Source of the DNA: Methylocapsa acidiphila B2
Lineage (GTDB): Bacteria; Pseudomonadota; Alphaproteobacteria; Rhizobiales; Beijerinckiaceae
Length of the DNA stretch: 64,000 nucleotides
Direction of reading: 5' to 3'
Assembly: GCF_000427445.1 (NCBI RefSeq)
Contig: NZ_KE386496.1
Coordinates: 1,840,506-1,904,505, forward strand
Under the pieces are notes generated by a model that did no database searches, was not told the DNA's origin, and worked only from the letters and a program-made list of their open reading frames with translations. Each line of letters opens with the position of its first letter. Position 1 is the first letter of the stretch. The position numbers were made by a program, and so were the translations under genes. Shown here piece by piece: positions 56,024-64,000 of this stretch.

Positions 56024-56100
56024 GCCGCCATAGCTCAGTTGGTTAGAGCGCTAGATTGTGGATCTAGAGGTCCCCCGTTCGAGCCGGGGTGGCGGTACCA
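56024..56100 (+). tRNA. tRNA-His (anticodon GTG)
   Basis: 77 nt including an encoded CCA. Acceptor GCCGCCA pairs with TGGCGGT; D-stem GCTC/GAGC; anticodon stem CTAGA/TCTAG with loop TTGTGGA, giving GTG (His); T-stem CCCCG/CGGGG. The discriminator is A73 and the base before G1 is C, so this tRNA-His lacks the G-1/C73 used by most bacteria, as known for many alphaproteobacteria whose HisRS has adapted. A phage-like region begins downstream, so its 3' end may be an attachment site. Confidence 0.95.
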
Positions 56101-56442
56101 ATAAAATCAATGGCTTACTAGATAATCCGAGCGGCTTTTCACCTCCAAAAATAAGTTTGTCGCCACCGGATAGCCACGCGAGCCGTCTTCAAGCGCCTGC
56201 ATGGTCCGGCGGCCATTCGCCAGGAAACCGCCGACCTCCATCGCGATCGACCAGCAGCGGCATCCCCTTCGTCGCCCGCCAAGCAACTTCCCAGGCTCGC
56301 TGTTCCGGCGAATCGCGCTTGATCCAAACGCCCAGTAAAGAGGGCTTAGCGAGTAACGCCGCGCCGCCGCAAACGTCGGTCGGAGGCAACCCAGCTCGCG
56401 GCCGCTTTCATCCCCCATTGGCGGTGGGGAAACTCGTGGTTT
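56101..56442. other. region between tRNA-His and phage-like genes
   Basis: No integrase is seen here. A minus-strand ORF at 56189-56389 (66 residues, MPPTDVCGGAALLAKPSLLG, later VWIKRDSPEQRAWEVAW) reads like a protein but ends in a stop after which the same frame carries on without a clear start. It may be a small or truncated phage gene. Confidence 0.35.
56189..56389 (-). CDS. possible small phage-region protein
   Basis: 66 residues ending FPGEWPPDHAGA. Composition is plausible (WIKRDSPEQRAWEVAWRATK), but the ribosome binding site is weak and no family is recognised. It may be a truncated relic next to the probable attachment site. Confidence 0.3.
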   Translation of the reverse strand: MPPTDVCGGAALLAKPSLLGVWIKRDSPEQRAWEVAWRATKGMPLLVDRDGGRRFPGEWPPDHAGA

Positions 56443-56889
56443 TCAGATCGCGAGAAGATCTTGGAGCAGACGAGCAGCGCCGAACATGTCGCGCGTCAGT
56501 GGCCAATGATCATCCTTAAAAACATCATCGCTAACAATTTCATCCGCGCGACACCAAAGGAACGCACGCGCCTTCACCTTCAGACCAGCCAAGGTCTCGG
56601 CACGCAATTCAATAATTTGATCGACGATCTCCGAATTCTCGGACGAGATCTTCTCGAAAACCTCTTCGGTCACGAGTAGATTATCGCTCCCGTCAAAGCA
56701 GGCCTTCTCTCGCTTCCAGCCCTTCTCAAGCACGGCTCCAAGGGCCAGCAGTTCCGCATCTGCGGGAATGGTCGCTTTTCCCGCCGCTATGGCCAAAGCT
56801 CCGAAGGCGGCGCCGGCCGATCCGGCGGCGATGAAACGACGGCGATTCGGCGAGCCGGGATTACTTACTGGAATGGTGACGTCCTGCAT
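56443..56889 (-). CDS. protein with twin-arginine (Tat) signal, unknown function
   Basis: 148 residues. The N-terminus carries NRRRFIAAGSAGAAFGALAI, a consensus-like Tat signal (RR, hydrophobic core), so export of a folded protein is likely. The remaining ~110 residues are acidic and helical (VLEKGWKREKACFDGSDNLL; EIVDQIIELRAETLAGLKVK). Transcribed divergently from the XRE regulator with an 82-base shared promoter region containing a palindrome. I do not recognise a characterised family. Confidence 0.7.
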   Translation of the reverse strand: MQDVTIPVSNPGSPNRRRFIAAGSAGAAFGALAIAAGKATIPADAELLALGAVLEKGWKREKACFDGSDNLLVTEEVFEKISSENSEIVDQIIELRAETLAGLKVKARAFLWCRADEIVSDDVFKDDHWPLTRDMFGAARLLQDLLAI

Positions 56890-56971: not shown

Positions 56972-57205
56972 ATGATACCTTCCCAATGCCGCGCGGCCCG
57001 CGCTCTGCTCGACTGGACACAACCCAAGCTGGCCGAAGCCGCGGGCCTCGGCCTCTCGACGATCGTGGATTTAGAACGCCAACGCCGCGCAGTTTCCGCG
57101 GAAACCCTTTCAACTATCCGCACTGCCCTTGAGTCCGCCGGCGTCGAGTTCATTGCCGAGAATGGCGGCGGCGCCGGCGTGCGGCTGAGGAAAAACACAA
57201 CGTGA
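56972..57205 (+). CDS. XRE-family HTH regulator
   Basis: 77 residues from the ATG at 56972. Cro/CI-type HTH: CRAARALLDWTQPKLAEAAG then LGLSTIVDLERQRRAVSAET. The C-terminus is GVEFIAENGGGAGVRLRKNT. It lacks a signal-peptidase-like domain, so it is a small repressor. It likely controls the divergent promoter via the palindrome at 56914. Its stop overlaps the GTG of the next gene (GTGA). Confidence 0.88.
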   Translation: MIPSQCRAARALLDWTQPKLAEAAGLGLSTIVDLERQRRAVSAETLSTIRTALESAGVEFIAENGGGAGVRLRKNTT

Positions 57206-57456
57206 GAAGCTGGAATTATAGGATTGTCCGCTATGCGGACGGGCGGGGCTTCGGGCTCCATGAGATTTTCTACGACGAAGCCGGCGTCCCCGAAACAATG
57301 ACGGCCGAGCCGATCGCGTTCACGGTCGAGGCGGAAGAAGGCCCGTCGGATCTTGTCGACATGCTCAAGGAAGCGGTTTTCGACGCGGAAAATAGCGGCG
57401 TGCTGGATGAAGCCGTTATCCTCGGCCGCGGCGCCCGCTCCGACTCGACTGGATGA
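57202..57456 (+). CDS. small protein co-translated with XRE regulator
   Basis: 84 residues from a GTG start that overlaps the XRE stop codon. Begins MRSWNYRIVRYADGRGFGLH, then EIFYDEAGVPETMTAEPIAF and an acidic helical C-terminus. This resembles short rhizobial proteins that I recall near prophage or XRE genes; function unknown. The stop-start overlap suggests a working pair with the regulator. Confidence 0.7.
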   Translation: MRSWNYRIVRYADGRGFGLHEIFYDEAGVPETMTAEPIAFTVEAEEGPSDLVDMLKEAVFDAENSGVLDEAVILGRGARSDSTG

Positions 57457-57473
57457 ACGCTCTGCGGACCACA

Positions 57474-57513
57474 GAGGCGGCGCAGGTGTGCGGCTGAGGA
57501 AGGGCGCAAAGTG
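57474..57513 (+). repeat. duplicated 3' end of the XRE gene
   Basis: About 40 bases repeat the XRE gene's end at 57166-57205: both encode GGAGVRLRK in one frame and end in a stop overlapping a GTGAG start. The second copy ends in GAK and has no gene ahead of it, so an upstream XRE-like gene was lost or the junction was duplicated. Confidence 0.65.
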
Positions 57514-57741
57514 AGCTTGATCCACAATGAACGAACCAAGCTGACGGCAGCCTGGCTTAATGCCTTGGCTGGCGCGGCATCGGCCGCCGGGGTCATAGCG
57601 CCGCTCGCCGCGGCATTCTATGGCGTCGCGAGCGCGCCGGCCAACGGCGCCCTGCTTCTCGCCGGCGTCACAATTTGGCTTTTCGCCGGGATAGGCCTAC
57701 ATTTTGCCGCGAGATATGTCCTTCGGAACTTAAAGCCATGA
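57511..57741 (+). CDS. small membrane protein, two TM helices
   Basis: 76 residues from GTG 57511. Begins MSLIHNERTKLTAAWLNALA and has two hydrophobic helices (AGVIAPLAAAFYGVA; ALLLAGVTIWLFAGIGLHFA) and a short basic tail (LRNLKP). It is followed by a 35-residue membrane protein whose ATG overlaps its stop. The pair could be a holin-like or other membrane module of the phage region, but no family is established. Confidence 0.65.
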   Translation: MSLIHNERTKLTAAWLNALAGAASAAGVIAPLAAAFYGVASAPANGALLLAGVTIWLFAGIGLHFAARYVLRNLKP

Positions 57742-61167: not shown

Positions 61168-62565
61168 CTATTGCAGCGACGGCGCCCAACGCACGAGCTG
61201 CGCGACAGCAACAGCCGCCGGATGGCGCATCTGGAAATCATGCGCCTGGATAGCCCGGATCGCGGTAGAATCCTCTACGAAAAGAGAGTGCAGATTTCCT
61301 TGCGAATCGTATATTGAGCCTTCCCTCGAGGCCGCGAGCTCGAGCTCCATCGAATCGAGAACGATCGCTTCCGTCATCTCGGCGAGAATGACGAAGGAGC
61401 AATCCTTATTCATTCCGGCCGCATCCCAGATGTTAATCGGGATCTGATTAGACACGTAGACGGGGATGCCCCAAATTTTCCGCGTGCGAAGCAGATCTGG
61501 AAACATCGGCAAGGCGATCGAATTGTAGAGCTGCGCAAGACCAACCAGAGTGCGGCCGTGCATAAAGAAAGCGCGGCGATCATTGGGCACATTGGCGATT
61601 TCGAGCTTGGCGATTAGCCCGTACAATTCGGCGAGGATAGTCGAGAGCGTATAGTTTCCCGCCGACGTGATGAAGTTTCCACCAACCGCCGCAGTGGAAT
61701 TGGCGCTGGAGGACCAAAGCCCGGCCGACCCGCCCGTGAGCATGGCCCATTGATTGGCGAAGCTGAGGAAGCCACGAGGTGTGTCTTGCGTGCCGTCGCC
61801 AACAATGAAGTGATAATCCTGCTTTAGCGCCAGTACACGAATTAGGTCATTGCGCACCATCGCATCGATGCCGGGGTCGTCGCCATACCTAAGCAGGTCA
61901 TTGCTTAGGCGGACCATTCCGGTCAATTTTTTGTATTGGCCGATGATCTGACCAAACGAAGGTTGAGACTCGGCGATCGCGCCGCGCTCGCCTTGGTACG
62001 TCGCCGCCGCGACTGAGGTCTGGATCGGCAAAGTGAGCGTTCCATGCGGCATAGAAATGGTGAGCGGCTCAGCCGCTCGAACCGCGATCTTCGGATAGAG
62101 GAAATCGACGATTTCCGTAGCCTGCTCCGGCGGGACAAGAAAGCCCCCCGATGAACCAATGCCTGCGATCAACGCCTTGTTGACGGCCTCGCGCACCGGA
62201 TGCCGTTCGCCGTAGAGCGATTTGACGTGCCCCTTTAACGCGACGTGCGAGCCGCCCGCTGCGGCCGCGGCGCGAACCATGGCGCCGACGACGAGACCCT
62301 TGCTCGAGCCGAGGCCGCGCTGCTGGGCCGCGGCGTCCGACGTAAAGGGATCGTCCTGGGCCTGAGCGTAGACGGTCCGGCCGGCCCTGAGCGCGGCAAT
62401 ATCGGCGTTGATGTCGTCGATTTCTTTGTCGATAAAGTCGTAGCTTTTCGACTCCGCCGCCGTGAGCGTCGAGCGGCCGGCAAGATAGTCGAGCCGCGAC
62501 GCCTTCTCCTTGCGTCTTGCCGTCAACGCGTCGATCCGCGCCTGTTGTGCTTGTGTGGTTGGCAT
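61168..62565 (-). CDS. HK97-fold major capsid protein (second copy)
   Basis: 465 residues. An N-terminal charged coiled coil (QQARIDALTARRKEKASRLD), possibly a delta-like scaffold domain, is followed by the HK97 capsid domain: GSSGGFLVPPEQATEIVDFL, GTLTLPIQTSVAAATYQGER, AESQPSFGQI, the P-domain stretch RLSNDLLRYG and QDTPRGFLSFAN. It is a paralogue of the capsid domain in the neighbouring gene (shared SQPxFGQI, LSxDxLR and QPRGxxSFA patterns), with clear divergence. Two consecutive capsid genes are unusual. Confidence 0.88.
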   Translation of the reverse strand: MPTTQAQQARIDALTARRKEKASRLDYLAGRSTLTAAESKSYDFIDKEIDDINADIAALRAGRTVYAQAQDDPFTSDAAAQQRGLGSSKGLVVGAMVRAAAAAGGSHVALKGHVKSLYGERHPVREAVNKALIAGIGSSGGFLVPPEQATEIVDFLYPKIAVRAAEPLTISMPHGTLTLPIQTSVAAATYQGERGAIAESQPSFGQIIGQYKKLTGMVRLSNDLLRYGDDPGIDAMVRNDLIRVLALKQDYHFIVGDGTQDTPRGFLSFANQWAMLTGGSAGLWSSSANSTAAVGGNFITSAGNYTLSTILAELYGLIAKLEIANVPNDRRAFFMHGRTLVGLAQLYNSIALPMFPDLLRTRKIWGIPVYVSNQIPINIWDAAGMNKDCSFVILAEMTEAIVLDSMELELAASREGSIYDSQGNLHSLFVEDSTAIRAIQAHDFQMRHPAAVAVAQLVRWAPSLQ

Positions 62566-62581
62566 TCTTATAAACCTCAGA

Positions 62582-64000
62582 TCATAGATGATAGGTCGCG
62601 CCCTGGATCATCGCGGCGGCGAGGCGAAACTTGAGGGCGAAGTCTCTCCCGGCAACACAACGCAGGAGGAGCGCGTCCTCCGCAAAGGCCGAATGCGTTC
62701 CTCCGCTATCTGTCCACAAGCCGTTTTGGGCAAGCGCAAGCTCAAATTGCGGGCCTTCAAAAATGATGGCCGTATCGGCGTCGCAAATATAGATTTCGGT
62801 CGTGTTCGAAGTCGAACCAACAGTGAGATTTGTGGGAATAGTCGTGGTCGAGAAGAACGGAAAGCCAAGCAGCGTCCCCCCCGCCATTTCGCGTCCAAAC
62901 ACCGGATAGCCGGACGTATCGAGCCAGGTGCGAAGAAACAATTCCGTCGCCGGATTGAAAGCCCAAGTTGGCTTAATCATCGGCACGTTTGCGGTAAGCA
63001 AAAATTGCGCGGCCGCCGCGAACTCGCTTAAGATCGAGGTCGTGCTCACCGAGGGATTTGAGGTGACGACCTGGCTAGAACCTATCGCGAAGGAGCGCAG
63101 GCCGCGCGGTTGAGATTGCATGCCATCGGATCGAATGTAGGAACTGTCCTCTGCCCATGCGATCTCGGCCGCTAGATGGGTGCCGATGATCTTATCCGTG
63201 CCCGGCCCGGCAAATCTCAAAAAATCGCCACTAAGGGGGATCAGCGCAACGAGCCGGTTCGCAGCCGCGCGGATTTGCCCGAAGGCGGGTTGCGATTGCG
63301 GAATAACGACATTGCTTTGCGAGAGCCAAGCCGTCGATGCGCCGGCCATAATGGTCGGGATGGATAAATTGCCGCGAGGAAGGTTAACGACCTGGGCGCC
63401 GGCCCGGCGCATCACAGTTCTCGGCAACAGAAGCGGAATCATATAGTCGGCGGCGAAATCATCGGGGATCAAAAAGGCACCGGAAGCGCCGTAGTTAGAC
63501 GATAAAGCCTTTGCGAAAGTTTTCGGGATGAAATGGCGTTCGCCGAAGCTTTTCTCAGCGATCTCGATTTTTCTCGAGCTGTCGCGTTCATGTGCGGTCG
63601 ACGCGACAAGGCGCACATAGCCGCCGAGCGCAGCGGCGGGATCATTATAAGGATCGCGGGCAATCGGCGCGGCGTAGGGCATGGGAGGATCCTGTTCAGA
63701 CAATGACTTTGCAATGACCAGGGCGCTGGGATTGGCGGGGATGGCGACCCCACTTAGCTCGAGAGGCGTCCAGCGCTTGAACCGGAAGCCGCCGCCCTTT
63801 ATCGGCTCCGGAGGATCGAGAGCCATAAAGCCAACCGAAACTCCGCGTAAGTGACCTGACTTGAAGAGCGCGCAAATCTCATCGCCTTTCGCCGAAACGC
63901 CCTCAGGCGCAAAAGTGATGTGAGCCTTGACGTTGGCGGCGCTGACGCTGAGCTTCGCACTCCCGAGCGGCTGCATCGGGTCATGCCCGAACAGGAAGGG
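62582..64000 (-). CDS. prohead protease-capsid fusion (5' end outside window)
   Basis: The frame is open to the window edge, so the N-terminus is missing; about 472 residues are visible. First comes the end of an HK97-type prohead protease: FLFGHDP holds the likely catalytic His and RGVSVGFMALDP the likely catalytic Ser, then WTPLELSGVAIPANPSALVI. A linker (residues ~100-160) leads into an HK97 capsid domain (NYGASGAFLIPDDFAADYMI; SQPAFGQIRAAANRL; SQPRGLRSFAIG). The protease normally cleaves scaffold peptides during head maturation; here both are one polypeptide. It is 16 bases upstream of the second capsid gene. Confidence 0.85.
   Translation of the reverse strand, partial: PFLFGHDPMQPLGSAKLSVSAANVKAHITFAPEGVSAKGDEICALFKSGHLRGVSVGFMALDPPEPIKGGGFRFKRWTPLELSGVAIPANPSALVIAKSLSEQDPPMPYAAPIARDPYNDPAAALGGYVRLVASTAHERDSSRKIEIAEKSFGERHFIPKTFAKALSSNYGASGAFLIPDDFAADYMIPLLLPRTVMRRAGAQVVNLPRGNLSIPTIMAGASTAWLSQSNVVIPQSQPAFGQIRAAANRLVALIPLSGDFLRFAGPGTDKIIGTHLAAEIAWAEDSSYIRSDGMQSQPRGLRSFAIGSSQVVTSNPSVSTTSILSEFAAAAQFLLTANVPMIKPTWAFNPATELFLRTWLDTSGYPVFGREMAGGTLLGFPFFSTTTIPTNLTVGSTSNTTEIYICDADTAIIFEGPQFELALAQNGLWTDSGGTHSAFAEDALLLRCVAGRDFALKFRLAAAMIQGATYHL

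Follow-up and report, generated by a model that had tools for sequence, protein, structure and literature searches.

Two adjacent HK97-type capsid genes, the upstream one fused in frame to a prohead protease, are carried by an integrated element of 14,405 bp in Methylocapsa acidiphila B2. The element lies between identical 58-bp direct repeats (attachment, or att, repeats) and extends across one end of the window, i.e. the whole stretch of 64,000 nt that was analysed (G000:C2:1840506-1904505 of the host genome). The two genes are referred to below as the fused gene and capsid 2. HK97-type heads mostly have a single major capsid protein. Protease-capsid fusion by itself is already known; judged by sequence, two capsids of which one is protease-fused do not seem to occur among the relatives examined. 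The reading preferred here, with a probability of roughly 0.4, is that of a reduced, satellite-like element whose shell is made (or altered) by two subunits.

Both genes exceed the curated cut-offs of the relevant families (PF05065, 24.2 bits; TIGR01554, 27.5; PF04586, 21). Capsid 2 matches PF05065 (Phage_capsid; E 1.5e-31, 110.3 bits) and TIGR01554 (E 1.5e-36, 126.4 bits). The fused protein matches PF05065 (E 2.3e-22, 80.1 bits), TIGR01554 (88.3 bits) and Peptidase_S78, PF04586 (E 3.3e-07, 31.0 bits); on the fusion family NF045541 it scores 40 bits, far from the cut-off of 525, and is not a member. An earlier note on this DNA, made from the letters alone, had described two adjacent HK97-type capsid genes with open frames, one of them protease-fused, and these matches bear it out. 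Its gene limits hold for capsid 2 (61168-62565, complete); 62582-64000 is only the window part of the fused gene, which was read past the window edge in the host genome and starts at window-equivalent 64153. The full fused gene (L006:9088-10659, minus strand, ATG at L006:10659) encodes 523 aa. A missed stop between protease and capsid was looked for in the genome sequence, and the frame runs from one into the other with none. The His in FLFGHDP and the Ser in RGVSVGF, both reported in the note, are kept (HD and SVGF motifs); these are presumably the catalytic residues of the S78 domain, a predicted role only. The two capsids are diverged, as had been said: capsid 2 and the fused capsid domain are 29% identical over capsid 2 residues 70-456 (E 2.1e-34), well above what chance would give. 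Two of the three patterns that the note listed as shared, SQPxFGQI and LSxDxLR, are common to both; the third, given as QPRGxxSFA, is shared only as PRGxxSFA, with QPRG in the fused protein and TPRG in capsid 2. The genes are separated by 16 nt.

Structure prediction, which the note had proposed, gives an HK97-like model for capsid 2 (predicted local distance difference test, pLDDT, 75). The model matches HK97 and gene-transfer-agent (GTA) capsids (best E 1.4e-13), with a template modelling (TM) score by target of up to 0.80 against HK97 prohead chains. Going by its match to the capsid of an Ancylobacter polymorphus prophage (below), capsid 2 is an ordinary prophage-type capsid. In the alignment and the secondary structure prediction, the protease of the fused protein occupies the place of the predicted N-terminal helices of capsid 2; a spacer of ~41 residues links protease and capsid domains.

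Tandem pairs were sought at 214 loci holding 177 distinct capsid open reading frames (ORFs), some places being fetched twice and flanks often being short. These loci are the 31 viral and nine genome relatives of capsid 2 (40 relatives, some near-identical in sequence), alignment sets A3 (best 80 of at least 545 viral relatives) and A7 (best 80 of 169) and 16 earlier loci; loci L010-L053 and L089-L099 stand outside this count, and the region of G870, a genome of the same genus, was examined separately. The profile search found a second capsid gene at none of the 214 loci, each having one capsid ORF; the pairing is thus unusual, as the note had held, and the same pair was looked for in relatives and found at none of these loci. 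The closest capsids to the pair are 48-57% identical. Protease-capsid fusions number 19 ORFs (16 distinct), each the sole capsid of its locus. An upstream protease match, always a separate ORF and followed by one capsid, is present at 33 of the 40 relatives of capsid 2; at the other seven, the contig starts <=0.9 kb from the capsid. Among the matches listed from phage and plasmid collections (40, 40, 15 and 12), each place has one piece; the exceptions are two Azospirillum plasmids, where protease and capsid, as separate genes, account for the two pieces. Viral contigs scanned with each single window protein yielded no relative. PF05065 has many strong matches over 397 genomes of the order, a search from which adjacency is not readable. 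The host genome has no PF05065 capsid besides the pair, and capsid 2 has matches in two of 15 genomes of the genus, the host included. No description of a capsid pair with one protease-fused member was found in open-licence PMC literature; in the available part of PMC6199706, 'two capsid genes' are mentioned for a Bacteroides prophage without detail. In the paper on phage JBD30 (PMC11445458), the passages that came up deal with adjacent copies of a single protein.

Seven viral contigs of 13.6-19.4 kb (L289-L292, L294, L299, L300) carry protease-capsid fusions. In L291, terminase, fusion and portal are consecutive; in L299, a terminase lies ahead of the fusion. These contigs look like capsid-forming satellites.

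The att repeats contain the last 48 nt of a tRNA-His. The main genes of the element, 82% of its length, are all on the minus strand, the integrase end first. From the far end, their order is integrase (tyrosine type, 423 aa, PF00589 9.3e-17, adjoining the far att repeat), 237 aa, 115 aa, a primase/ATPase-like protein of 589 aa, 164 aa, 165 aa, a coiled-coil-like protein of 275 aa, the fused protein, capsid 2, a tail-assembly-chaperone-like protein and, last, a tape-measure-like protein of 859 aa. Fifteen ORFs of the element were scanned with Pfam and PHROGs, and none matches a terminase or a portal, although a very diverged one could escape these searches. The coiled-coil-like gene (L006:10656-11483) overlaps the fused gene by 4 nt, and its product could be a scaffold; two of 99 genomes of the family match it at E<=0.001, namely the host and one weak match with stops. 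The chaperone-like and tape-measure-like genes are 2 nt apart. The former has no family match (Pfam, PHROG, NCBIfam) and no match in the G870 prophage; the latter has no Pfam or PHROG match and only weak NCBIfam matches, far below cut-off. The primase/ATPase-like protein matches phrog_29234 (function unknown; 4e-126) and phrog_19930 (DNA polymerase/primase; 4.9e-19). Eleven relatives of it (L089-L099) are 31-41% identical and 558-923 aa long; an integrase match is present at five of the 11 loci and a capsid match at none, and these loci may represent a broader group of integrated elements. Two direct copies of 53 nt, 75% alike, flank the phrog_21321 ORF (window 57154-57206 and 57463-57515). 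A scan for defence genes gave a single match at 0.005, judged to be due to chance. The features within the window are listed in Table 1.

Table 1. Features of the element and its integration target in the window (window coordinates)
Feature	Coordinates	Strand	Basis or remark
tRNA-His, integration target	56024..56100	+	ARAGORN
Left att repeat, 58 bp	56053..56110	+	identical to L006:16964-17021 (window-equivalent 70458-70515)
ORF, 148 aa, twin-arginine-like N-terminus by eye	56443..56889	-	no Pfam over cut-off, no PHROG
ORF, 84 aa, phrog_21321 (unknown function)	57202..57456	+	E 1.1e-11
Tape-measure-like protein, 859 aa	57975..60554	-	alignment to tape measures of G870 and of the resident cluster
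Tail-assembly-chaperone-like protein, <=129 aa	60557..60946	-	position and resident-cluster match; putative name
Capsid 2, complete HK97-type major capsid protein, 465 aa	61168..62565	-	PF05065, TIGR01554, structure model
HK97 capsid domain of capsid 2, residues 115-462	61180..62223	-	profile match
Delta/scaffold-like region, capsid 2 residues 1-70	62356..62565	-	predicted long helices; secondary structure and alignment
Fused prohead protease-capsid gene, window part	62582..64000	-	ATG start at window-equivalent 64153
Second, diverged HK97 capsid domain, residues 197-522	62588..63565	-	PF05065
S78 protease domain, residues 4-156 (first 51 residues beyond the window)	63686..64000	-	PF04586

The likely source of these structural genes is indicated by a prophage of G870, which has a portal, a protease of 462 aa and, after 0.9 kb, a single capsid of 473 aa. 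This capsid is 48% identical to capsid 2, and the protease is 42% identical to the fused protease domain over 151 aa. At the tape-measure position, a protein of 1036 aa (L315:1363-4473, itself with no PHROG match) resembles the 859-aa protein over residues 2-408 (29%, E 2e-23) and 479-809 (33%, E 1e-28). The remaining genes of the element have no clear match in the G870 prophage. In that prophage, the frame of the terminase large subunit (L314:5475-8400) is apparently broken after ~100 residues. A prophage of Ancylobacter polymorphus DSM 2457 (L054, the same as L132) has terminase, portal, protease and a single capsid, 46% identical to capsid 2 over 463 aa, in consecutive order. In the element, the order of protease domain, then capsid 2, is that of ordinary phages. 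Most likely, the element would owe its protease domain, capsid 2 and the tape measure to a G870-like phage, the order being kept and the intervening and surrounding genes removed.

In the protease tree, the fused protease domain falls in a clade of eight rows (Shimodaira-Hasegawa-like approximate likelihood ratio test, SH-aLRT, 100); five of its seven other members adjoin capsids of the capsid-2 clade, and two (L157, L159) do not. The junction ahead of the capsid domain was also compared. The motif DP[YFW] is found in both window capsids, in 20 of 48 members of the capsid-2 clade and in none of 55 capsids outside it (a motif first noticed in the alignment; three of 106 rows were dropped for a short N-terminus). 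A spacer longer by four residues is found in both window capsids and in three of 59 others having this segment (106 examined, 47 without it); the G870 capsid lacks it. Because these junction features point inside the clade, the fused capsid is taken to be a duplicate of the same lineage. The fused gene is likely to have arisen by duplication within the lineage, after which one copy became attached to the protease and its delta helices disappeared.

How each copy has since evolved was assessed on columns conserved in >=90% of 108 capsid rows. With 32 of 54 retained, the fused copy ranks lowest of the 108; two distant capsids come close to it (L055, 32/53; L067, 36/57). Capsid 2 keeps 44 of 54, the sixth lowest. 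At variable columns, the values are 21/96 and 35/94, respectively. On a set of 58 rows, both copies had appeared exceptional, ranking lowest and second lowest (37/65 and 50/64); that set excluded the most distant capsids, and with all 108 rows the fused copy alone is lowest. The fused copy is unusually changed and capsid 2 moderately, neither of them freely. For the fused copy a shift in constraint is plausible; for capsid 2 the case is less clear.

In a neutral simulation started from the L131 capsid (200 runs each), runs taken down to 57% identity acquired 6.2 stops on average (minimum 1) and those taken down to 38% acquired 8.7 (minimum 2); the real frames have none. Means were 2.7 at 80% and 1.6 at 90%, certain runs having none. 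The simulation puts the whole divergence on one branch and therefore overstates stops. Since both copies are diverged and fully open, long neutral decay is disfavoured. The suggestion in the note of a decaying duplicate fares poorly in the light of this and of the tight packing of the genes. Its other suggestion, a domesticated particle, is not supported, as the genes lie in an att-bounded element with an integrase and capsid 2 is matched in so few genomes of the genus.

The reading of a reduced, satellite-like element is supported by the exact att repeats, the tight one-directional gene order, the open frames and the satellite-like size. A mixed shell from both capsids, also raised in the note, is possible. 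In such a shell, the two capsids would co-assemble, with capsid 2, which has a delta region, as the main subunit. The fused subunit would carry the protease into the procapsid at the place of delta, and either take special positions (e.g. vertices) or fix the size of a small shell. A helper phage would supply packaging and most of the tail, as in phage satellites; this proposal follows from the lack of a recognised terminase or portal among the element's genes. That the ratio of subunits sets both protease dose and shell size, the helper giving portal, packaging motor and tail parts, is a rather doubtful extension of this scheme.

A possible helper resides in the host chromosome, outside the window, as a head-tail-lysis cluster at ~C2:1707500-1731831 (L222, L220). 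It has a terminase (phrog_979), portal, protease-like protein, head-tail adaptor, tail genes and a tail lysozyme (PF18013). At the capsid position is a 505-aa protein, phrog_13692, of a family different from that of the pair. No integrase was seen beside the cluster, no profile search for one having been made. Thirteen of 15 genomes of the genus, the host counted, have its terminase, mostly at ~80%; in three of them it is present only as fragments, and in some it has a stop. The cluster looks long resident because the terminase is so widespread, and it may be GTA-like or a long-kept prophage, its capsid belonging to a family that has no name (phrog_13692). A genome search with PF03354 missed the terminase that PHROG finds and is not usable as evidence of absence. 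The chaperone-like protein of the element matches the cluster protein that precedes the tape measure (31% over 83 aa, E 1.5e-11). Residues 741-826 of the tape-measure-like protein are 50% identical to the 418-aa tape measure of the cluster (phrog_2854), the part shared with the C-terminal part of the element's protein being G000:C2:1720666-1720917. Among 297 sampled genomes of the order (three candidates scored per genome), two have this tape-measure match, the host and G014. The G870 tape measure matches that of the element better and over a greater length than the cluster's does, and also matches the cluster's (E 2.3e-31). One tape-measure family thus seems, from these alignments, to be present across three elements of the genus. 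The likeness is not specific to the resident cluster, and its role as helper is accordingly a possibility.

Several results weigh against a two-subunit shell. Co-assembly of the capsids and mobility of the element are without direct sign, and, as no second such element was found, upkeep of the pair by selection across genomes is unsupported. Modelling of the fused protein, from its window part only, gave a poor result (pLDDT 62.9); the top matches of the model are HK97-type and weak (best E 1.1e-4, TM by target ~0.4). In the capsid tree of 108 rows, the fused copy lies outside the capsid-2 clade. Its end branch of 2.52 is the third longest (median 0.21; capsid 2, 1.26, seventh longest). Forcing it beside capsid 2 costs 32.9 log units (approximately unbiased test, p-AU 0.109), and forcing it into the capsid-2 clade 5.2 (p-AU 0.363), both on the 58-row set; neither placement is rejected, and the tree cannot place the fused capsid. 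Complementary loss of conserved sites between the copies was tested and has weak support: capsid 2 lost 14 of 64 positions, losses common to both copies are 5/64 against ~6 expected by independence, and a regional anticorrelation of -0.69, sought post hoc, is equalled or exceeded in 4 of 63 circular shifts.

The main rival, and a possible one, is a young defective prophage that has lost terminase, portal, connectors and most of the tail by deletion, in which protease and duplicate capsid were fused by chance and the genes are now idle, their frames open merely for lack of time. It would account for the scattered head-tail remnants (capsid-to-tape-measure interval ~0.6 kb, 5.1 kb in G870), the rank of the two copies as lowest and sixth lowest in conserved positions, and a left end of 1.9 kb with small ORFs only. 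The 589-aa ATPase-like protein is also shortened, without the N-terminal part seen in most relatives (806-923 aa in seven of 11), and the third-position G+C of element genes (0.59-0.71; four host genes, 0.79-0.84) is low, as in recent arrivals. Against this, junctions are tight and none of the element's genes was recognised as broken; selection acted for much of the period in which the capsids diverged with open frames, so that only a recent loss of function fits. Alternatively, the fused protein, perhaps with capsid 2, could enter the shells of a helper and shrink or poison them. Satellites that redirect helper capsids are established in the available text of PMC12409344, no terminase or portal was recognised here, and a G870-type phage with a capsid related to capsid 2 is present in the genus. 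Such interference is nevertheless unlikely: the host genome has no other PF05065 capsid, the candidate capsid of the resident cluster being phrog_13692, and a complete capsid 2 with a delta region exceeds what interference needs. Least probable of all is a shell built by capsid 2 alone, the fused protein serving as the protease and its capsid domain as a low-copy procapsid anchor, later degraded. The protease motifs are intact and 28 of 64 conserved positions are gone from the fused capsid domain, nine of them at the C-terminal end (residues 495-523), which speaks for this reading; yet the domain matches the capsid profile over its full length (E 6e-107, with both window rows in the profile) and is better kept at conserved than at variable columns.

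If a two-subunit shell is indeed formed, this natural pair would make it possible to test directly if delta and protease can occupy a single procapsid position, and would inform how small elements acquire their own shell. Even as a young defective prophage, the element would clearly document a capsid duplication together with a gene fusion.

Among known systems, the fusions phrog_617, phrog_4523 and NF045541, which agree with the statement in the note that fusions exist elsewhere, and those of thaumarchaeal proviruses (in the part of PMC6563490 available) have S78 N-terminal to the HK97 capsid, as here. However, in the 19 fusion ORFs examined, the fusion is the sole capsid of its locus and the interdomain spacer is 66-209 residues; the element has a second capsid and a spacer of ~41. 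The G870 and Ancylobacter prophages have, like the element, a protease followed by a capsid-2-type capsid (48% and 46%). They differ from it in having portal and tail genes, a separate protease of ~460 aa with its own C-terminal extension, and one capsid. To our knowledge, neither gp23 nor gp24 of T4 is fused to a protease. These two are HK97-fold paralogues, thought in the text available from PMC9958956 to be duplicated, in one shell; the likeness is by analogy only. Capsid-forming phage-inducible chromosomal islands (cf-PICIs), of 14 kb mean size in the available part of PMC10803314, resemble the element as integrated ~14-kb elements with their own integrase, att bounds and an HK97 capsid. 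The capsid of the cf-PICI EcCI2 (PDB 9gyi) matches the capsid-2 profile at 3.5e-12, as GTA and phage capsids also do. As described in the excerpt of PMC12409344, cf-PICIs encode all proteins for small capsids and packaging, whereas the element, in which neither terminase nor portal was recognised, has two capsids and a tape-measure-like gene.

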